From positions 1 to 64,000 of the forward strand of contig JASAMV010006009.1 of assembly GCA_030248065.1 (NCBI GenBank): 64,000 bases of DNA. Direction: 5' to 3'. Position numbers and translations under genes: made by a program. Below, one piece after another: positions 22,901 through 32,512 of this stretch; the first letter of the stretch is position 1, and every line of letters begins with the position of its first letter. This DNA is from Rhynchonema sp. JSB1_4. Taxonomy: Eukaryota > Nematoda > Chromadorea > Monhysterida > Xyalidae. A model generated the notes under the pieces. It worked only from the letters and a program-made list of their open reading frames with translations. It was not told the DNA's origin and ran no database searches.

Positions 22901-25495
22901 CTCTATCATCGACGGGCGACGGACTTCGTTCGAGTCTGCGTTTGCTCACAATCTGTTTGGCCGTGCCTGCTTCATGGGTGCCGTCTTGGTCGATGGTGTC
23001 AACAGGTAGCGAGCTGTAGCGCACTGCGCTCGGTGGCTGGTTACGCACATTGCTCAGCACTATTTCCTGTCAAACTTACATACTTTTTAATAATACTCCC
23101 TGAGAAAATCGTGCAACTGGCGCTTCGTTAGCCTTTGAACAGCGTTGGCAAGATTACTCAATCACCTGTTCTCTCATAAATAAGACTGAGCACCAGTCGC
23201 GTCCAGCTCACAACTCACAGTTTCCAAGCGTTGTGCCTCCGACAGAGGTGCCCAAAGTCCAAGTCCTCAAGAAAGACGTTTTACCTGGAATTTCTTCTCC
23301 AATCGCGGGATCATAGCAGCCACATGGCCTTCGTCTGTGTCGTGCTTCTCGTCGTGTTCGTATCGTCGTTGTTTGTTGCGCAATTTTTGAGCATTTCGAA
23401 AATTCTTGACCACTCTCAGAAATTTTGCACCGTCCGCCGGACCTGCATGTATTTATCAGGAAAAGAGCGATTTTATATTTGTGATTTTACAATCGCCTAA
23501 AATTCTAAACATCACACCTGCACCGTCGTCAAACTGATCAGCAGAAGTGTCGTTGTCGCATTCCGGTGTCCGTTGTTGGGAAGAGTGCGCCGTCTGACGG
23601 CTCAGCTTGCGTTGTTGTTGTTTGGTCGATTTTTGCTAAACAAAATCAGATAACTTTTGAAGACAATGATTTTTATCTTTTTTTTACATCGACCACGACC
23701 GGCACTGTACTGGCAGGCGTGGTTGCCGGGTGCCTTTGGGGATGGAAGGACCGGGAACAGTGTAGTTCCTGGGGGGCAGTGCTGTGGCTGGGGGGGAGGT
23801 GGTTCCCCCCAATGGTACCCTACCCGCCCCGGCCTGGTTGGTACACTACCCCCTACCCGCCCCGCTCCGGTACCCTACCCCCCTACCCGCCCCTCCCTGG
23901 TACCGTACCCGCCCCGATGTTTGCCCTCAAAATGCCCATTTTTCGGTCAAAAATGCCCAAATTTCGACCGAAAACCCTTAAAAGTGCAAAAAATCGCGCG
24001 ATATGTGCACTTTATAGCATATAAAAATAGGCACCCAAAAAAACTTGTATTGTACCCTACCCGCCCCAAAAAATCTTCCCCCCTCGCCCCCAACCGGCTT
24101 TCCCCCCTCCAAGATTCCAGGTACACTACCCCCTACCCGCCCCGGATTTTTCCACCTATGTACCCTACCCGCCCGGAAAAGTAGCCACAGCACTGCTGGG
24201 GGGAGGAGGGTCCCCCCTAAGGTACACTAACCGCCGCGACGAAGGTACACTGGTACACTAACCGCCGCGCCAGGTACACTAACGGCCTCAATTTTTGCCT
24301 AAAATCGGCATTTTAGGCCAAAAATGGGCATTTTAGGCCTAAAGTGGGTGATTTTTAGGTCAATGATGCCAAAAGTTGCCAAAATACCCTTTTTATGGAG
24401 AATTTTTTCCAAAAAGGGGCAAAAATCGGTCACATTTACTACCTCAAAAAGTGACTTTTTCCTGGATTTGGGTCTTCCCCCCAGGGAGGTACACTAACCG
24501 CCGCACGGAAAAAAGGATAGGCACACTAACCGCCGCGCCGGACCAGGAACCACACTGACTACACTGACAAAAATACTGCTTTTTGCATGTATTTCATCAC
24601 TGCATTGCTTAGAACCGGAATCTGAAATACCATCAGAAACAGTCGGTCGGAAAAATTGAGTCTGCCCAGTGTGGTTCCTGCTATCCATAAATTCAGAACG
24701 AGAAGAAGCGACTACTTAATCATGGGTACAGACGCTGAACCTGCCCGAGGTCTACCTGCGTGTGCCACCAAGCACACTAAATTCGGCGAACTCTCTCCAA
24801 CGTCCGGAGGATGTCTACGTCCGTTGCACAAACTGGAGATGCCGACCGACTGCTTAATCATGCTTTCCAAATTTTTTCACATTTGCCAGGTATACCCTCC
24901 GATACCGATCGCTGGAGGGGACACCCGCTTGCCCTCACAGCCAAGCACCGAGAGACGCAGGCACTGACCTGTTGGTGGTGGATCGACCCATTGGATTCGA
25001 TGCTCGCTCGACCAGAGTACGCCTTTCGACGACGTTTTTCGAGTCGAGAATTAGCCGCAACGATATCGTCTTCGTCCAGGTGCTGAAAATTTAACTACGT
25101 TGATCATGGTTAAAAATCGTCAGTCTGGCACTGGCAAGATTAGGCAACCATCAAGTCACATTTGGGTTCACTTTCCTTTTCACTGGGCTGGCCCCCAATA
25201 AGACACCAGTGTCTTCAAACTTTATCTTTCGGAATTATTGGAACGCAACTTAAAAGGTCACCTGTTCTCCATTTACGTGCCCTCCATCGTCGTCACTCGG
25301 ACTTTCAGTGTCCGATCCATCCGCCACGTCAGCCTCCTCCTCAGCATCCGCATCTTCAATCACAACCGTTGGCGATGGCGTTAGCGGCGGTCGTTTGGCC
25401 AATTTTGCCCGTTTTTCGTTTGTTGCATTCATTGGCGACACACACTGCTTTTGTTGCATTTTGCTCGTCTTATTTGGTGCTGGTGCGCTACTCAT
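7927..25495 (-). CDS. MAP3K4: MAP kinase kinase kinase 4 (MEKK4/MTK1 type)
   Basis: About 34 exons encode roughly 1,850 aa. Exons 5' to 3': 25262-25495, 24969-25082, 23518-23635, 23285-23442, 22878-23066, 20872-20887 (16 nt), 20510-20646, 20224-20410, 19587-19753, 19396-19521, 19113-19326, 18189-18305, 17837-18132, 17209-17580, 16876-17082, 16040-16204, 15656-15825, 15378-15446, 15128-15292, 14681-14882, ~13795-13984, 13214-13331, 12825-12983, 12419-12571, 11953-12168, ~11698-11792, 10885-11107, 10674-10782, then the kinase exons. Family landmarks include RAMGFAKLL, MIQAYNFAFEYH, CCELVDEF and FVNCYYNEDR. The protein relays stress signals (GADD45 in vertebrates) to MKK3/4/6/7 and then p38/JNK. 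The first ATG (MSSAPAPNK) is a guess, because the frame is open for a short way upstream. Joins 21/22, 18/19 and 26/27 are the weak points. Most large introns carry transposons. Confidence 0.9.
9439..9830. mobile_element. Family F element, copy 2 (right end not recognised)
   Basis: It starts TAGGGCTAGAG and continues with the gtcgggtgcc word and a body matching 27150-27675, including 'ttcaaaacatcag' and 'catttatgcaaat'-like phrases. The right inverted end is not found, so it is probably truncated. It lies in the MAP3K4 intron between the 9346 and 9872 exon edges. Confidence 0.6.
10011..10673. other. MAP3K4 intron with possible LINE 3' remnant
   Basis: Non-coding for MAP3K4. The stretch at about 10080-10600 resembles a retroelement tail: short protein-like phrases, then a TG-rich segment and 'gagcaataaaccaacc'. 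No domain could be named. Confidence 0.3.
11141..11512. mobile_element. hAT-like element, family C, copy 1
   Basis: Ends are CAGTAGTGTCGTTGGG and CCCAACGACACCACTG. An 8-bp near-identical duplication flanks it (GCAGCAAG / GCAGCAAA). The word GGATACCGGATACCC repeats near both ends in the same orientation. The body is AT-rich with the phrase 'gcgccagcaagcgattttgagcattttg'-like sequence shared with copies 2, 3 and 5. It sits in a MAP3K4 intron. Confidence 0.8.
12598..12748. repeat. Short foldback in MAP3K4 intron
   Basis: Arms of about 38 bp (AAAGTTGTTTCGGAT... against ...ATCCGAAACAACTTT) are separated by about 70 bp. It starts 27 bases upstream, in transcript sense, of the exon edge at 12571. 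It could be a small MITE. No clear target duplication was found. Confidence 0.5.
13013..13085. repeat. G/C homopolymer tract beside a MAP3K4 exon
   Basis: Runs of G, then C, then C with few interruptions occupy about 70 bases directly upstream (minus sense) of the exon at 12825-12983. G-tracts are a common feature of the hAT-like ends in this window. Assembly or polishing error is equally possible. Confidence 0.6.
13390..13757. mobile_element. hAT-like element, family L, copy 2
   Basis: This is a diverged full-length relative of 1-366: G-rich left part, 'ctgatacacttcaaaagtccaaaaatc', the GCGCGC palindrome, two 'caagcact' phrases, and the right end CTGGATCCGTCACTG. It lies between MAP3K4 exons 21 and 22 and almost touches the exon 21 reading frame. 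Confidence 0.65.
13985..14680. other. MAP3K4 intron, no feature seen
   Basis: No exon with consistent frame and splice sites, and no recognised repeat. Confidence 0.4.
18473..18807. mobile_element. hAT-like element, family C, copy 4 (diverged)
   Basis: It begins CAGTGGTGTCGTTGGG with the GGATACCGGATACCC word and a recognisable but diverged C-family body. The right terminus has lost its similarity, but exact 8-bp copies of ATACTCAC flank the interval (18465-18472 and 18808-18815), which supports these limits. Confidence 0.6.
18890..19100. mobile_element. Partial family E element
   Basis: It contains GGTTGCAAGGTACC words at 18905-18975 and the start of the E body ('ggtccgaaaa', 'gcataatactgcaaa', 'cctaaaatggctattatacgga'). 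The right end is missing before the MAP3K4 exon at 19113-19326. Confidence 0.6.
20888..22877. other. MAP3K4 intron rich in a GCTACTAAA word
   Basis: No exon is seen. The motif GCTACTAAA, or its complement TTTAGTAGC, recurs near 21653, 21674, 21894, 21922, 21940, 22478, 22807 and 22851. It occurs with AT-rich sequence and GCGCGC-type palindromes near 21800, 22028 and 22360. This looks like another word-bearing element family, but termini were not identified. Confidence 0.45.
23758..24557. mobile_element. hAT-like element, family A, copy 1
   Basis: Left end CAGTGTAGTTCCTGGGGGG, right end CCAGGAACCACACTG. The word GGTACACTAACCGCCGC occurs at 24220-24290 and again at 24485-24535, same orientation. 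The body contains runs of 'cattttaggcc' and 'tcaaaaagtgactttttcc'. It is interrupted by B1. No matching 8-bp flanks were found, so the ends may come from two different A copies. It lies in a MAP3K4 intron. Confidence 0.65.
23777..24195. mobile_element. hAT-like element, family B, copy 1 (nested in A1)
   Basis: Ends are CAGTGCTGTGGCTGGGGGG and AGCCACAGCACTG, flanked by an exact 8-bp duplication CTGGGGGG (23769-23776 and 24196-24203). The word GGTACCCTACCCGCCCC repeats at both ends in the same orientation. The body shares 'tttttcggtcaaaaatgcc' and 'ggcacccaaaaaaacttg' with B2. Confidence 0.85.
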
Positions 25496-25707
25496 GTTTT
25501 GTTGTTCCAGCAAGTCGGCTTTGGATCTCTGGATCCGTTGTTTAGCTAAAACTTTAAAAATTCAAGTTCAAGTTTTATGCACGCTTTCGCAAAAGCCTAA
25601 CGGCAGGCTAGGAAGAATTAACAAAATGAGCTGAACATGAGCAAACAAACACGGACAAACAGAACGGGTAGGACAGGGGCAGTGTGGTTGCAAGGTACCC
25701 TTGGGGG

Positions 25708-26145
25708 CAGTGGTGTCGTTGGGAAATCAAAAAGTCAGGATACCGGATACCCAAAATCCAAAATTTTCGGATACCGGATACCCAAAATGAAAAATCTCGG
25801 ATACCAGGGGGGGGGGGGTTGCTCCCTAAAATAAAAAATCTCGGATACCCAGGGGGGGGGGTTGTTCAAAAAAGGTCAATTTTTTAAGAGGAAAATCGAG
25901 CAAAATTGGTGTTGAAAGCGCAAAAAATGGTCATTTTGGGGGTTATGCTTGCGCTAGCAAGCGATTTTGAGCATTTTGGAGGTAAAAATGGGCGATTTTT
26001 ACGGTTTTCGGAAAAATTTTAGGGTAGGATACCCCTGGACAAAAAGTCAGGATACCGGATACCCCTGGGTGAAAAAATCAAGATACCGGATACCGGATAC
26101 TAGGGGGGGGGTAACCCCCCCCTTCCCCCCCCAACGACACCAGTG
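25708..26145. mobile_element. hAT-like element, family C, copy 3 (nested in E1)
   Basis: Ends are CAGTGGTGTCGTTGGG and CAACGACACCAGTG, with an exact 8-bp duplication CTTGGGGG (25700-25707, 26146-26153). The GGATACC words at both ends are in the same orientation. Removing it restores a continuous E left end. Confidence 0.88.
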
Positions 26146-27149
26146 CTTGGGGGGGATGGATCCAGATGGTTGCAAGGTACCCCTGAGGTCCGAAAAAAGG
26201 GTGTTTTTTGAATGCATTATACTGCAAATTTGGCCGAAAAAATTGGTACTTTTTTGCATTTTGGCCGAAAATTTCCCTAAAATACCTATTATATGGAGGT
26301 TTGCGCGCGGAGCGCGCGATTTTTGGGGGTTTGGAGTCGAAAAACACCCATTTTTACCTATAAAAACCATAAATTGATGGTTGCAAGGTACCCTCCGGGG
26401 TGGTTGCAAGGTACCCAGTGCTGTGGCTGGGGGGAGGGGCGTCCCCCCCCAATGGTACCGTACCCGCCCCGGCCTGGTACACTACCCCCTACCCGCCCCG
26501 CTCCGGTACCCTACCCCACTGTAGTGGCTGGTACCTTGCAACCACCCCTTGGGGGGGAAGGGTAGGTACCTTGCAACCACCCCGGAGGGTACCTTGCAAC
26601 CATCAATTTATGGTTTTTATAGGCAAAAATGGGTGTTTTTCGACCTCAAAACCCCAAAAATCGCGCGCTCCGCACGCAAACCTCCATATAATAGGTATTT
26701 TTGACAAATTTTCGGCAAAATGCAAAAAAAGTACCAATTTTTCGGCCAAATTTGCAGTATAATGCATGCAAAAAACACCCTTTTTTCGGACCTCAGGGGT
26801 ACCTTGCAACCTCCTGGAGGCTGGGTAGGGGGTACCTTGCAGCCATCCAGTGTAGTTCCTGGTCCGGCGGGGAAATTAGTGTACCTCCCTACTTTTTCGG
26901 AGGGGAAATTAGTGTACCTCCCTGGGGGGGAAGGGGGGAGACCCAAAATCAGGGAAAAGTCACTTTTTGAGGTAGAAAATTTGACCAATTTTTACCCCTT
27001 TTTGGAAAAAATTCTTCAGAACAAGGGTATTTTGGGGACTTTTGAGAACATTGACCTAAAAATCACACATTTTAGGCCTAAAAATGCCAATTTTAGGCCT
27101 AAAAATGGCCATTTTAGGCAAAAATTGGGGAAATTAGTGTACCCGGAGG

Positions 27150-27675
27150 TAGGGTTAGAGAGATGTCGGGTGTCGGCTGTCGGGTGTCGGGTGTCGGGTG
27201 CCAAAAAAGTGTAGGTGTCGGGTGTCGGGTGTCGGGTACCCCCAGATGTCGGGTGTCGGGTTTTTTCGGGGCCCACACCCCACAGCCGACACCCGACACT
27301 TACGGTTCAAAACATCAGTATTGCTTGAGAGAAGAATTTTGAGAGAAAATTTTCTTCGAACCAAATGTTTCCGAAGACGCAGAATGTGACATTTTGGTGT
27401 TTATTTCGTGTGAAAATACCTGAATTCAGTAACTTGAGCCAAAAAATTGCACTCATGATGCAAATGAGCAAAAATTTGCCTGTTTTTGTTCCAAAAACAG
27501 GTGTCGGGTGTCGGGTTTGTTTCAAAAACTAGATGTCGGGTGTCGGGTTTTTTTGCAACTGTCGGGTGTCGGGTGTCGGCTTTTTTTCTGAGATGTCGGG
27601 TGTCGGGTGTCGGGTACTTCCAGATGTCGGGTGTCGGCTGTCGGGTGTCGGGTACCCCCCCGACCTCTAACCCTA
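27150..27675. mobile_element. Family F element (TAGGG ends), nested in A2
   Basis: Ends are TAGGGTTAGAG and CTCTAACCCTA, with an exact 8-bp duplication CCCGGAGG (27142-27149, 27676-27683). The word is GTGTCGGGTGTCGGGT, highly repeated. The body matches 9439-9830. Confidence 0.85.
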
Positions 27676-27702
27676 CCCGGAGGGGAAATTAGTGTACTAG
27701 TG

Positions 27703-28180
27703 CAGTGTAGTACTTGGTCAGGGTGTTGACGATAGATAGATTGGGACCCGAAATGTGTTGACGATAGATAGATGACCCAAGTCCGAAATCTGGGGGGGGG
27801 GGTTGACCCAAACTTGTTGACGATAGATAGATGGTGGGGGGTCGCCAAAAATCAAGGTATAGTATAGTGTACTAAGCAGGTAATAATGTGTAAATATTAA
27901 TGAAAATGTACTTAGATGTACTAAATCCGCGCGTAGCGCGCGATTTTTTGCCTATTTGGGACAAAAAATACCGATTTTGAGCCATTTTGAGGCAAAAATA
28001 CCCATTTTGGGGGTCGAAATGTGTTGACGATAGATAGATTGTTCCCAGAATTTGTTGACGATAGATAGATTTGCCCATAAGTGTTGACGATAGATAGATG
28101 AAATCAAAAAGTGTTGACGATAGATAGATGAATTTGGGGGGGACCCCCCCACCCACCCACCCCCCCGAAGTACTACCCTG
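27703..28180. mobile_element. Family G element (TTGACGATAGATAGAT words), nested in A2
   Basis: It begins CAGTGTAGTACTTGG and ends AAGTACTACCCTG, with an exact 8-bp duplication TACTAGTG (27695-27702, 28181-28188). About seven copies of TGTTGACGATAGATAGAT are split between the two ends, all in the same orientation. The body has a GCGCGTAGCGCGCG palindrome. Confidence 0.85.
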
Positions 28181-28281
28181 TACTAGTGTACCTTGGTCGG
28201 GGAAATTAGTGTACCTTAGGGGGGTCCCCCCTCCCCCCCAGGAACTACACTGCAACCATGTGGATCCGATCCATCCCCCCC

Positions 28282-28672
28282 TAAGGCTGCGCGTATACTC
28301 ATTCCGCGGAACAGAAAGAACAGGTAGAGGAACGATCGTTTCTGCCAACTGAAGTGCGTTCCGCTCGAGGAATTGTTTGTGTTTTATCAAACTGATGTTG
28401 CGGTACCAGGTTTTAAAACAACCGAATAATTAAAATATTGGGTTGGCCCAAAATGCTCGTTCCTCCACCAACTTCAGTACATTGAAAGTGGAGGAGCAGT
28501 CATTTTGCTTCAGCCGTATGTGCGCTTGTCATCAAATTTGTTGTGCATGCGCCTGGCGACTAACTAAAGCTTGTTGTTGTTGACCCGTTGGCTAAGTATT
28601 TCGCAGTTAGCAGAAACGTTCGTTCCTCCACTCGTTCCTTCTGTTCCGCGGAACGAGTATACGCGTGCCTTA
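28282..28672. mobile_element. Family K foldback-type element, copy 1 (nested in E2)
   Basis: Long inverted ends TAAGGCTGCGCGTATACTC / GAGTATACGCGTGCCTTA are followed by TTCCGCGGAACAGAA and GGAACG repeats. A second copy is at 33586-33866. It sits in the right word array of E2. The duplication is not clear. Confidence 0.75.
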
Positions 28673-28944
28673 AGGGTCTTGCAACCATTTGCCTGCCACT
28701 ACACTGCCCTACCCCCCTATCCGCCCCGCCCTGGTACCCTACCCGCCCCAATTTTTTCCCTCAAAATGCCCATTTTTCGGTCAAAAATGCCGAAATTTCG
28801 ACCGAAAACCCTTAAAAGTGCAAAAAATCGCGATATATGCACTTTATTGCATATAAAAATAGGCACCCAAAAAAACTTGTATTGTACCCTACCCGCCCCG
28901 AAAAATGTCCCCCCCTCCCCCCCACCCCGGATTTCCCCCCCGCC

Positions 28945-29357
28945 CAGTGTAGTTCCTGGTCCGGAGGGGGGAACAGGCGGTACCCCCCTTTTTTCGGAGG
29001 GGGAACAGACGTACCCACCTGGGAGGGGGGGAAGGGGGGGAGGGACCCGGAAGGGGGGGAGGACCCAAATTTGGAGAAAAGTCATTTTTTGAGGTCGAAA
29101 ATTTGGCTCATTTTTGCCCCTTTTAGGAAAAAAATCTCAATAAAAAAGGTATTTTGGCGATTTTTGACGACATTGACCGACCTAAAAATCACTCATTTTA
29201 TGCCTAAAAATGCCTATTTTAGGCAAAAATTTGCCTATTTTAGGTAAAAATTGGGGGAGCAGACGTACCCGGAGGGGGAACAGTGGGGCAGGCGTACCAT
29301 GGAGGGGGAACAGACGTACCCGAGGGGGGACCCCCCTCCCCCCCAGGAACTACACTG
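28945..29357. mobile_element. Family A-related element J (nested in B2)
   Basis: Ends are CAGTGTAGTTCCTGGTCCGG and CCAGGAACTACACTG, as in family A, and the body is A-like. The word, however, is GGGGGAACAGACGTACC. Flanks are CCCCCGCC / CCCCCCCC. B1 has no insertion at this point, which confirms the site. Confidence 0.8.
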
Positions 29358-29413
29358 CCCCCCCCCAAGATCCCAGGTACACTACCCCCTACCCGCCCCG
29401 GATTTTTCCACCC

Positions 29414-29843
29414 CCGTATTGTCGGAAATAGAACCCGGGGGGTCTATTTTTTCACTGGGGTCATTTTGGGGGGGTTCAATTTATGGGGGGGTCAATTATT
29501 TGGGGGGTTATATTTTTCATTTGGCCCCCCAACGAAAAAAATCATTGTTAATAATGCCCCTAAAAATGGCTTGTTTTCGGTATTTTCTAACTTTAACACC
29601 TGCAATTATGCTTAAAAAGCTGTGTTCTGTTGTGTACGCAAGTTTAAACAACGTTTGACACAACAACACAGCCTTATCATACCACTAATCTGTGGTACGG
29701 TGAAGGTTGGGGGTGGGGTTCTATTAATGGGGGGGGTCAATTAATGGGGGGGTTCTATTTTTGATTTCGAGCCATTTAGGGGGGGTTCAATTAATGGGGG
29801 GGGTCAATTAATGGGGGGGTTCTATTTCCGACAATACGGTATG
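29414..29843. mobile_element. Family H element (TATTGTCGG ends), nested in B2
   Basis: Inverted ends CCGTATTGTCGGAAATAGA and its complement. Internal runs are of the kind GGGGGTCAATTAATGGGGG and GTTCTATTT. B1 gives the empty site CCACC/TATG; no target duplication is visible. The superfamily is unknown. Confidence 0.7.
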
Positions 29844-29877
29844 TACCCTACCCGCCCCGCAAAAGTAGCCACAGCAC

Positions 29878-30306
29878 CAGTGGTGTCGTTGGGAAATCAA
29901 AAAGTCAGGATACCGGATACCCAAAATCCAAAATTTTCGGATACCGGATACCCAAAATGAAAAATCTCGGATACCAGGGGGGGGGGTTGCTCCCCAAAAT
30001 AAAAAGTCTCGGATACCCAGGGGGGGTTGTTCAAAAAAAAGTCAATTTTTTAGAGGAAAATTGAGCAAAATTGGTGTTGGAAGCGCAAAAAATGGTCATT
30101 TTTGGGGTTATGCGTGCGCCAGCAAGCGATTTTGCGCATTTTAGAGGTAAAAATGGGCGATTTTTACGGTTTTCGGGAAAATTTTAGGGTAGGATACCCC
30201 TGGACAAAAAGTCAGGATACCGGATACCCCTGGGTGAAAAAATCAAGATACCGGATACCGGATACTAGGGGGGTAACCCCCCTTCCCCCCCCCAACGACA
30301 CCACTG
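29878..30306. mobile_element. hAT-like element, family C, copy 2 (nested in B2 terminus)
   Basis: Ends are CAGTGGTGTCGTTGGG and CCCAACGACACCACTG, with an exact 8-bp duplication CACAGCAC (29870-29877, 30307-30314). The target was the terminal inverted repeat of B2 itself. The body is close to C3. Confidence 0.9.
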
Positions 30307-30412
30307 CACAGCACTGAAGGTACCTACCCTTCCCCCCATCCCCCCAAGGGGTGGTTGCAAGGTACCTACTCCTTAGGGAGGGAACCCCCCATCCCCCCCA
30401 GCCACTACACTG

Positions 30413-31720
30413 CACAGGGGTAACGGTAACGTATGGTAACAGGGTAACACTACTGGACAACATTGACATGACAACACAACAGACAACAACCAACAGCAAA
30501 AAATGATTTGAAAAGAATGGAACAAACCGATTTTGAGGTGTCCGCAACAGTCAACTCAACGCAATGTGGCACCGAAACAATAAGCCAAGGAAACTTTGAT
30601 AAGTTTGACGAAGTTAATGATTTTAATTGGTCTGAAAGTGAAAAAGACCAATGTAGCAGCGATTCAGCAAGGCGTGACCAACGAATGAGTGATAATTAAT
30701 TGATGGCTGAAGAGAAATTGGACAAAATATGGTCCCAGACACGGTCGCGACAAAGTGCGCGCAGCCTTTTTTTGAATTGATGGGATGAACTTGAGACGAC
30801 CACACACTAGGGAAGACCGTTCCCAGATCGACAACACGGTGACTCCAGAATCTTTCCAAGGACCGACCAGGACCCCGGGCTCGACTCAGCTGGTGGCAGT
30901 GGCCACGGCCACGGACAGGACGGGAGGAGGGTGAGGTGAAAAAGTCGCTCCTTGCAACCCCTGGTATAAGGCCGGAAATAATTTTGTGTAATAATAATAA
31001 GACCGAAATCGGGCTCGTTTTGGCATGGTTTGCCTCTACGTGGACACAGCTGAAAGGATTCCTAAGGGGAGCCTGACTTATTAGGTAGATAACACTGGTT
31101 AATCGTTCCCCAGGCATAATACGTATCCAGAAGGCCGGAATGACGCATCTAAGGGAAGTCAAAAGCGGAAAGGATGTACAGTATATAGAAAAACGTGATC
31201 TAAATGCATCGAAACAGCCTGACCTACAGAACCAGTGGTTTGAGCGTTCCTCAGGCCCAATGCCGCATCCAGGAGGCTGGAATACGGACGCTTCTAAAGG
31301 ACGGTCACAAACCGGAAAGACACCTATGAGCAGGGCGCGTATAGATAGGGCAGTAGCACTTCTTGGCGAACACTTTTCCGGAGTTAAATAAAGGTGTTTC
31401 ACAGTGTTCGCAAAAGGTGTTCTGCTCTGTCAGTACGCGCCCTGAGACGAGATGGACAAAACCTCACGGCCTCGTTCCTGGCCGGCTCGATTGTGAGCGG
31501 CATAGTGCCATGTGAGATCTGTGTTCGCACGAAAATGTATCGCGATCCGAGCCATTGTCGGACATAGACGCGCGACACAAACGAACGGGCACCGCGATTC
31601 CACCAAACACTGCCATCAGGTAAAGCTCCGGGCGATGAGCTGGCCAGAAACGCGAAAGGAATTCAACACAACGCGCGCGGCGAAGCGCAAGCTCGTCTGA
31701 CACCGAACACCACACACTCG
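30413..31720. other. Unassigned region with degenerate repeated coding phrases
   Basis: A plus-strand ORF at 30508-30699 encodes an acidic 63-aa stretch, and 31140-31391 encodes 83 aa with GGWNTDASKGRSQTGK. A related phrase in another frame lies about 145 bp earlier (31107-31165, GRNDASKGSQKRKG), so a coding unit seems duplicated and then broken. A 259-codon minus-strand ORF covers the same DNA but shows no domain. It may be a decayed retroelement; no family is recognised. Confidence 0.3.
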
Positions 31721-31724
31721 CGAC

Positions 31725-32037
31725 ATCCCCCCCCAGAAAAAAGTCTCTGATGCCCAGGGGGGTTGTTCAAGGAAGGTCAAGTTTTTAGAGGAAGATTGAA
31801 CAAAATTGGTGTTGGGAGCGCAAACATGGTCATTTTGGGGGTTATGCTTGCGCCAGCAAGCGATTCTGAGCATTTTGAAGGTAAAAATGGGCAATTTTTA
31901 CGGTTTTCGAAAAAGATTTAGGGTAAGATACCCCTGGACAAAAAGTCAGAATGCCGGATACCCCTGGGTGAAAAAATCAAGATACCGGATACCGGATACT
32001 AGGGAGATAACCTCCTCCCCCCCCAACGACACCACTG
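31725..32037. mobile_element. hAT-like element, family C, copy 5 (5'-truncated)
   Basis: It matches the C body and right end (CCCAACGACACCACTG at 32022-32037) but lacks the left terminus and first words. It abuts the K+ channel pseudogene. Confidence 0.75.
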
Positions 32038-32129
32038 GTAACGACACCCAGCCGAGCCCACTGTTTTGTCACCCGCTATTTGATCGTCTGTCACACAGCT
32101 TGATGTTGTCCGTATACGAGCGCACCAGA

Positions 32130-32319
32130 CTACCGTAATCCACCGAATCTTATCGGCACAATATTGCCGTATCCTACTGATACCGTAGTCATCGTAACGA
32201 CCACCAGAACGCCGCCGGAATGCTGATGAATTGTGTGCCTTCGGTACCGTTATCCACAAAGTACAGGATGCTCGAAAAGAACAGCGCTACGCCTGTCAGA
32301 ATCACCATTGATAACATGC
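32130..32319 (-). pseudogene. Voltage-gated K+ channel pore exon, disrupted
   Basis: After a CATTCAG acceptor the frame reads an S5-like helix (GMLSMVILTGVALFFSS, then ILYFVD) and the pore-helix lead ISIPAAFWW, typical of Shaker-type Kv channels. The frame then shifts before VVTMTTV. The selectivity filter carries two extra residues (TTV-SV-GYG instead of TTVGYG), and a stop follows soon after GNIVPI. S6 is not recognisable. This is a decayed duplicate exon; other exons were not found. Confidence 0.7.
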
Positions 32320-32423
32320 CTGAATGATAAAGGTGACATTGTAAACTCGTTATTTCACCAAAACGCTTGATCCTGTGTCACATCGTTGTTATTTTGTCAT
32401 GAACGTTTGAATACAAAAGCCTG

Positions 32424-32512
32424 GGCCGAAATGTAAGTGGACCGATAGGTACCCGAACCGAAATGTACGTGGACCGAAAGGTACCCGGACCGTAAAGTGT
32501 GTGGACCGAGAA
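32424..32512. repeat. Short tandem repeat with GGTACCCG core
   Basis: About three imperfect units of roughly 34 bp contain CGAAATGTACGTGGACCGA and AGGTACCCG. The GGTAC core matches the word arrays of the hAT-like elements, but no terminal repeats were seen. Confidence 0.55.

Follow-up and report, generated by a model that had tools for sequence, protein, structure and literature searches.

Subterminal repeats are known transposase binding sites in the hAT transposons Ac and Hermes, and have been proposed as such for Kat1. Maize Ac/Ds resemble the elements described here in carrying short subterminal repeats, which the transposase binds cooperatively (AAACGG hexamers in the case of Ac), and Ds elements share tips and some of their repeats (PMC3260210). 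In maize, however, the shared parts are tip and repeat, with a variable filler, and some Ds1 elements that lack the hexamer still transpose (PMC3260210). Here, tip and body are shared, whereas the repeat varies in concert between families of a single genome. In Hermes, a BED finger reads a short core together with the sequence that follows it, at several sites per end: BED domains bind the subterminal repeats, three of them at the left end, while the right-end repeats make no BED contact, mutation of inner left-end sites does not strongly reduce transposition, and the authors suspect a host factor (PMC10368747). The Hermes sites are 4-bp AAGT/AAGC motifs, one pair of which is palindromic (PMC10368747). 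By contrast, the words described here, whose binding by a BED finger is putative, measure about 14–18 bp in groups A–C, E and G, are direct repeats, and occur in many versions per genome. Preference for 8-mers differs among hAT BED domains, and four hAT proteins have BED domains that match the subterminal regions of their own (PMC8097297). Kat1 of Kluyveromyces lactis, a domesticated hAT, likewise has subterminal repeats proposed to bind transposase, but the available part of that account concerns one locus with one repeat and does not describe diversification into families. Coral CMITEs, which are of piggyBac type, share with our elements an internal region that is more conserved than the recognition sequences; unlike here, their TIRs vary and their duplications are TTAA, and repeated words are not described in the part of the report available (PMC2872659). 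A literature search, mainly of titles and abstract openings, found no description of concerted word exchange. Such exchange on a near-constant body, together with the direct-repeat polarity of the words, is the new part of this work.

The window, a 64,000-nucleotide stretch of a contig of the nematode Rhynchonema sp. JSB1_4, contains at 23758–30412 a nest of hAT-like MITEs with CAGTG ends and 8-bp duplications (Table 1). An earlier note, made from the sequence alone, had described families of such elements at 23758–32512, each with a short tandem word beside its ends, several of the words sharing a GGTAC core. Words, repeats, ends and duplications stand, but the description of the F unit and F ends, separate termini for A1, A2 and J, and the right edge do not. 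The repeat at 32426–32509 is a 32-bp tandem array containing GGTACCC with no CAGTG end adjoining; it was left out of the count. Tips of the hAT superfamily are short and inverted, with a YARNG-like start. The elements studied here have tips of this kind (CAGTGNNGTNNNTGG), starting with CAGTG or, in F, with TAGGG rather than the CAGTG first ascribed to it. These tips enclose an AT-rich, non-coding body, and a short motif is repeated in both subterminal regions. A vertebrate-type hAT end yielded 5 scattered one-mismatch matches (reversed control, 2).

Table 1. Elements of the nest and its surroundings, in window coordinates; motif counts give forward and reverse occurrences.
Element	Position	Strand	Ends, words, duplication and interruptions
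A1	23758..24557	+	CAGTGTAGTTCCTGG-type ends; words GGTACACTAACCGCCGC at 24221, 24252, 24488, 24520; B interrupts at 23777-24195
B	23777..24195	+	Ends CAGTGCTGTGGCTGG / CAGTGCTGTGGCTAC; words GGTACCCTACCCGCCCC; duplication CTGGGGGG; CTACCCGCC 6 forward, 0 reverse
E1, outermost	25680..30412	-	Words GGTACCTTGCAACC at 25686, 26168, 26379, 26402, 30353; duplication GACAGGGG/CACAGGGG; C and B interrupt
C	25708..26145	+	Words GGATACCGGATACCC; duplication CTTGGGGG; GGATACC 10 forward, 0 reverse
B, second	26416..30316	+	Duplication AAGGTACC within E1 word; interruptions: E1, J, non-CAGTG insertion, C
E1, second, within B	26517..28706	+	Duplication CCCTACCC within B word; words at 26530, 26565, 26588, 26798, 26831
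A2	26848..28252	-	Words GGTACACTAATTTCCCC at 26869, 26902, 27127, 27682, 28199; F and G interrupt
F	27150..27675	.	Ends TAGGGTTAGAG (TAGGG); TGTCGGG units 21 forward, 1 reverse; duplication CCCGGAGG
G	27703..28180	+	Words TGTTGACGATAGATAGAT, 7 copies; duplication TACTAGTG
J (J1)	28945..29357	-	Words GGTACGTCTGTTCCCC at 29000, 29254, 29305, plus variants; duplication CCCCCGCC/CCCCCCCC
C	29878..30306	+	Words GGATACCGGATACCC; duplication CACAGCAC
C, truncated	31727..32037	+	Right end and right-hand words only; left boundary approximate

Target site duplications of 8 bp accompany the B, C, E, F and G elements of the window. We also assembled 28 A-type pairs by their ends, orientation and distance, the duplication playing no part in the choice; it is exact in 17 of the 25 testable pairs, has one mismatch in 6 and is absent from 2, the other 3 pairs lying at a locus edge. 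No recognisable duplication was found around the A1 element of the nest, and the flanks of the A2 element, CAGCCATC/CAACCATG, are perhaps a decayed one with two mismatches. As a separate observation, 10 of 31 duplications touch a word, against 6.6% of 8-mers at the same loci. We do not claim a preference for insertion into the words of other families, because the loci had been selected for their density of elements, two insertions are doubled by an inverted duplicate, and the comparison was not confined to element-rich DNA.

Every word named in the earlier note is present and repeated, with its copies positioned inside elements of its own family. Allowing at most one mismatch, 23700–30420 holds 7 copies of the B word, 4 of A1, 5 of A2, 3 of J, 10 of E, 4 of F as first written, 6 of C and 7 of G; the rest of the window adds 2 of E and 4 of C, and none of the others. 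GGTAC occurs 174 times in the window, where dinucleotide shuffles predict 75.7 and none of 100 reaches the observed number; 71 of the 174 lie inside 23758–30412 (10.7 per kb, versus 1.8 outside). This excess and the positions of the copies in each element rule out chance as the source of the words. Nor are they microsatellites or one tandem array: in A, B and E the slots are dispersed at similar positions with spacers between them, and the pairs compared show no free variation between copies. Elements of groups A, B, C, E and G carry three or four slots interior to the left end and two to four interior to the right, whereas F and hAT-Y, to whose plan that of F is related, contain tandem runs. 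The words are real and look functional.

A conserved core (GGTAC or GGTA) with diversified tails is found in A1, A2, J, K, B, E1 and E2. K, a fourth word on the CAGTGTAGTTCCTGG end, was newly found, as were two additional words for E, a second one for C, and one further GGTAC word not assigned to a family. The shared core had been correctly recognised for A1, A2, J, B and E1, and its absence from G likewise, but not for F, whose unit is TGTCGGG/CCCGACA and which shows GGTAC only where the array terminates. The C word carries an altered core, GGATACC, and E3 has the core on the other strand. Of the proposed core-plus-tail code, family-fixed words survive, and so does a conserved core with diversified tails in the seven word families listed above; the tie of word to terminus does not, nor does the core extend to F.

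The CAGTGTAGTTCCTGG end has 9703 exact copies genome-wide (reversed control, 2), and in the 224 kb in which its word classes were read it is accompanied by no fewer than four families of words (A1, A2, J and K). One word per terminus, as first supposed, is therefore ruled out; A1, A2 and J share a single end sequence. Between consensus sequences, A1 and A2 differ at 0/20 positions in the core, 20/60 in the tail and 9/164 in the body; A1 and K at 1/20, 23/60 and 8/185; A2 and K at 1/20, 18/60 and 7/164 (the A1 consensus, of 7 rows, takes in both rows dropped from the slot analysis below). J1 and J2 show the reverse, with 1/59 tail and 36/184 body differences; the four J rows represent two insertions, because L037 and L038 duplicate a single stretch in inverted orientation. 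Tip identity (0/35) is no result and is uninformative, because the elements were picked by their tips. The spacers between words differ as well (A1–A2 8/44, A1–K 21/44, A2–K 18/44), which indicates that the unit exchanged is the subterminal block and not the word alone.

Within an element, slots differ at 1.28 of 12 positions; the figure is 6.14 when a given slot is compared across families and 4.69 after shuffling of slots, and 0 of 2000 shuffles is as low as the within-element value. This analysis covers 26 of the 28 A-type elements, leaving aside L044_4614 (K-left/A1-right) and L048_1510 (a decayed copy). Slots were set by hand in eight elements: two were re-read by a narrower match, three windows were moved by one base at a C run, R1 of L041_7741 was shifted with one C added as padding, and L3 was blanked in L044_2452 (interrupted) and L045_6776 (deleted). 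A single rule served to re-read L2 in every element, the misread L2 of L052_4975 being kept, and four elements are without one or two slots. Genome-wide, neighbouring slots pair like with like: A1–A1 2499 times, (A2|K)–(A2|K) 2339 and A2–A2 611, against 1 for A1–(A2|K), 3 for (A2|K)–A1 and 0 for A2 followed by K. Reversed controls of all six counts are 0; the patterns are exact, so that decayed words go uncounted, and cover A1, A2 and K in neighbouring slots. Free variation between copies, which had been named as grounds for refutation, is not seen, with 4 discordant A1/(A2|K) pairs against 4838 concordant. A second group, E1/E2/E3, repeats the pattern, with bodies 81–87% identical and different words (one or two copies each). 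Words are thus family-specific, near-uniform across the slots of one element and conserved where the body drifts (J1/J2), and they differ in all slots together on a nearly unchanged (A1/A2/K) or similar (E1/E2/E3) body.

The words also have a direction. In the 28 A-type elements they point one way, 108:0, though the tips are inverted, and in ten elements of other groups the polarity is 98:2. This orientation count overturned an initial view of the E1 words as having opposite directions at the two ends.

Which transposase might read these words? PF05699 was found in all 150 scored hAT candidates, of 330 candidates in total, alongside 32 zf-BED matches and one match to DUF659 (PF04937); DUF4371 (PF14291) gave no match, but control genomes likewise gave none. 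Among the 150 of 330 candidates scored by PF05699 and the 24 hAT 3' flanks, we found no transposase with these tips and a GGTAC word. The flanks are 19/24 hAT-X and 5/24 hAT-Y, both with other tips; autonomous copies carrying each word, for which the earlier note had advised a search, did not turn up. Both coding lineages do carry tandem words of their own, CCCGAT in hAT-X and CCGACA in hAT-Y.

We consider it probable that the words are arrays of sites for the BED finger of hAT transposases, replaced in concert when an element switches to another partner. Each word would be recognised by the BED zinc finger of a single transposase lineage, and several transposase copies may bind the array cooperatively; the tips would supply a cutting site that related transposases have in common, and the left end could be distinguished from the right by the single direction in which the words point. 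A change might follow a shift in the finger specificity of a transposase lineage, or capture of the element by another lineage. Amplification would then be confined to elements with all slots changed, which would make intermediates rare. Conversion between direct repeats may homogenise the slots; this supply of changed slots is the least supported step. Against this explanation count the failure to find a transposase with these tips and a GGTAC word among the candidates and flanks examined, the exchange of spacers along with words, the Hermes right-end repeats and inner left-end mutations, and the behaviour of some maize Ds1 elements. More tentatively, at somewhat short of even chances, the elements may form a modular address system: on one tip and one body, whole subterminal word sets would be exchanged in concert, practically without mixed intermediates, giving parallel, possibly mutually exclusive transposition channels that could be switched with the cutting site unchanged, with word orientation encoding left versus right end.

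Could the words serve something other than a transposase? They might bind a host protein, such as a bending factor or silencer, or be targeted by small RNAs of the host. The pattern of change would fit a host arms race equally well, and the Hermes data suggest a host factor acting on inner end sequences (PMC10368747). We nevertheless think this unlikely: both coding hAT lineages carry lineage-specific words, as expected if the transposase reads them, and polarity and end-proximal slots fit transpososome assembly. It is very improbable that the words are neutral subterminal sequence homogenised by conversion or slippage, the body being the constrained part. Near-identical A1/A2/K bodies with differing tails and spacers would agree with this, and direct repeats can convert, but in J1/J2 the tails are kept while the bodies have diverged, the opposite of tail neutrality; moreover, the slots are dispersed rather than forming a single tandem run, and mixed neighbouring pairs are almost absent.

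Under ordinary descent, each family would derive by its own internal deletion from a different autonomous hAT, and the body they share would be an old common remnant. In its favour, a body tree of 24 rows (omitting L044_2452, for its insertion, and L047_5133, which gave no body and was left out of the body identities) groups largely by word, with 5 changes against a minimum of 4 and a shuffled mean of 14.9. Within that tree, however, the bodies of A1, A2 and K are for the most part an unresolved comb, and body identity is about 89–91% across families versus 88–95% within them; the words therefore most probably changed once the body had been fixed. Shared body limits and slot positions would also be unlikely to arise from independent deletions, and we hold this account to be highly doubtful.

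Concerted replacement of presumed transposase sites bears on a hard problem: a transposase and many scattered sites must change specificity together, and mutating a single site achieves little. In this genome there are thousands of similar elements whose main difference is their presumed binding-site set, which opens the question to direct binding and mobilisation assays. Tools for hAT-based gene delivery would gain from such a system a catalogue of candidate orthogonal recognition words, and it could account for the separation of many MITE families within one genome.

Does a subterminal word of these hAT-like MITEs belong to the terminal inverted sequence (tip) beside it, or to a family? The CAGTGTAGTTCCTGG end is present in 9703 copies genome-wide versus 2 for the reversed control, and within 224 kb, comprising the window and 20 loci selected for carrying this end, it is accompanied by at least four words, those of the A-type families A1, A2, K and J. 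Because one end is shared by at least four words, the word marks the family and not the terminus, and the tie between word and terminus proposed in the earlier note was not borne out. That note had listed A1, A2 and J; the K word has no copy in the window. The words themselves proved real, with an agreement inside each element stronger than its reader could know, while the common GGTAC or GGTA core held for group A, B, E1 and E2 but not for the other families.

Words and positions of the features discussed (window coordinates, or L-numbered loci of the same assembly)
Feature	Position	Sequence or content
A1 word		GGTACACTAACCGCCGC
A2 word		GGTACACTAATTTCCCC
K word		GGTACACTATCTCCCCC
J word		GGTACGTCTGTTCCCCC
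E1 word	L054: 57, 104, 127, 337, 371, 409	GGTACCTTGCAACC
E2 word	L054: 49, 98, 125, 346, 369, 406	GGTATCT..CTCGAG
E3 word		TACTTACCTCTCAC-like; GGTAAGTA on opposite strand only
Second word on C end	L068	GGTATGGGAAA
Further word, unassigned to a family	L064	GGTACAGTAGGTATCCCC
Further CAGTG family	L042 2526-2846; L057 351-734	words AAGAAAGCTAGCTAGC, without GGTAC core
Nest of hAT-like MITEs	23758-30412	one inserted within another
A1 element		B inserted inside
Outer E1	25680-30412	contains C, then B
B within outer E1		contains another E1, J and C
Inner E1 (within B)		contains A2, which in turn contains F and G
Insertion within B	29412-29838	inverted ends around CGTATTGTCGGAAATAGAACCC; runs like GGGGGTTCTATT, TCAATTAATGGGGG; not a CAGTG element; an L055 element is flanked by similar sequence
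Inverted repeat	28279-28676	73 bp, 84% complementary, around CCGCGGAACAGAAAGAACAGG; seemingly a further element within E1
Tandem array	32426-32509	32-bp unit containing GGTACCC; no adjoining CAGTG ends
L044_4614	L044 4524-5155	K words at left, A1 words at right

The window is part of an assembly of 203.9 Mb in 5747 contigs. Element ends in its nest are CAGTGNNGTNNNTGG-like, with F (TAGGGTTAGAG) as the exception. We picked 28 A-type pairs by ends, orientation and distance; in the 25 that could be checked, the 8-bp duplication was exact in 17, had one mismatch in 6 and was absent in 2. Judged by their duplications, 10 of 31 insertions touch words of other families (for example GTTGCAAG, GTATCCGG and GCGGTTAG), and a target preference for such words is possible, the count being uncontrolled for element density. 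Contig C9 (loci L037 and L038) seems to be its own sequence duplicated in inverted orientation, which may be an artefact of the assembly or of haplotypes.

Within an element the words are uniform. Of the 28 A-type elements, 26 entered an alignment of five slots, four of these having one or two missing. Mismatches among the slots of a single element number 1.28 per 12 letters (26 elements), as against a mean of 4.69 when slots were shuffled among elements (0 of 2000 shuffles as low); the same slot differs at 6.14 of 12 letters between families and at 0.49 within one. Genome-wide, neighbouring slots gave 2499 A1 to A1 and 2339 A2-or-K to A2-or-K pairs (including 611 A2 to A2), versus one discordant A1 to A2-or-K and three A2-or-K to A1; exact A2 to K neighbours numbered zero, as did all reversed controls. 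These are exact-word slot pairs rather than elements, one of which may yield two, and the searches covered those six combinations. L044_4614, the element with two kinds of word, sits where a K element inserted into an A1 element; it may have arisen by recombination between nested relatives, and natural recombination may mix words.

How do the words change relative to the rest of the element? Differences were counted by column between family consensus sequences. Between A1 and A2 the differing columns number 0/20 in the core, 20/60 in the tail, 8/44 in the spacer and 9/164 in the body; in the same order, A1 and K differ at 1/20, 23/60, 21/44 and 8/185; and A2 and K at 1/20, 18/60, 18/44 and 7/164. 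The corresponding values for J1 and J2 are 3/19, 1/59, 7/44 and 36/184. Among A1, A2 and K, then, the tails differ in concert on an almost fixed body, whereas in J1 and J2 the tails are fixed and the body drifts. Spacers change along with tails, so it is the subterminal block as a whole that is exchanged. Tip columns were identical (0/35 different) in all ten consensus comparisons of elements that had been selected by their tips, an identity set aside as an effect of that selection. A body tree of 24 rows resolves few branches among A1, A2 and K, which come out as a comb; the five word labels require 5 changes (minimum 4), compared to a mean of 14.9 for shuffled labels (0 of 200 as low).

E-type elements, with CAGTGTAGTGGC-like tips, likewise occur with three words. 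Pairwise alignment of their E1, E2 and E3 bodies, each represented by one or two copies, gives 81–87% identity and scores that greatly exceed those of shuffled sequence; at L054 E1 and E2 carry six words apiece at similar positions. In many of the left ends of A, B and E and the right ends of C, tip and first word are separated by a G-run/C-run stretch, variable in length, that could fold back.

Tips are inverted and words direct: the 28 A-type elements hold 108 forward words and none in reverse, and ten others (three C elements plus single elements of G, B, E1, E2, F, the GCTAGC type and hAT-Y) hold 98 forward and 2 reverse, one of the latter in F and one in hAT-Y. In Kat1, repeat polarity differs between ends (PMC4763223).

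Do coding hATs carry such words? PF05699 matched in 150 of 150 scored candidates (330 in total), zf-BED in 32 of 104 and DUF659 in 1 of 3; the DUF4371 profile gave no match, no control genome having matched either, and is hence uninformative. Grouped by shared sequence, the 3' flanks of 24 hAT genes (loci L056–L080; 20 of them standing high in the match list, 4 picked for other match ranges) fall into two coding lineages, hAT-X (19) and hAT-Y (5). The putative hAT-X terminus, ..CCCGTTCGAACACTG, was placed where copies cease matching; the L062 flank shows no visible end, and L078 has one changed letter. hAT-Y ends in ..CCGACGCCGATCCCTA, and its deletion derivative L076 retains both ends, the BED domain and a duplication, GTTGTTGT. 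Tandem CCCGAT units are visible in 8 of 8 inspected hAT-X flanks, and CCGACA units in 4 of 4 of hAT-Y, so family words do occur on coding hATs of this genome, but a coding hAT joining a GGTAC word to these MITE tips was not found among the 24 flanks. With its TAGGG ends and CCCGACA unit, F is similar in plan to hAT-Y. An identical score is shared by 23 of the 32 zf-BED matches, L076 included, which suggests a recent burst.

The system is of the hAT subterminal-repeat type. In Hermes, BED fingers recognise short repeats in the subterminal regions, with three bound at the left end and none observed at the right; recognition requires the core plus the sequence after it (PMC10368747). Among hAT BED domains the preferred 8-mers vary widely, those of four proteins matching their own subterminal regions (PMC8097297). 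Ac binds AAACGG repeats, yet some Ds1 elements without AAACGG move (PMC3260210). By analogy, each word would be a BED site and each family the address of one transposase lineage: the transposase would bind the words, a change of word set would reflect a change of transposase partner, mixed sets would be selected against, and conversion may operate between slots. As far as searches of the open-licence literature could show, the concerted exchange of all of an element's words, with tips and body shared, is new.
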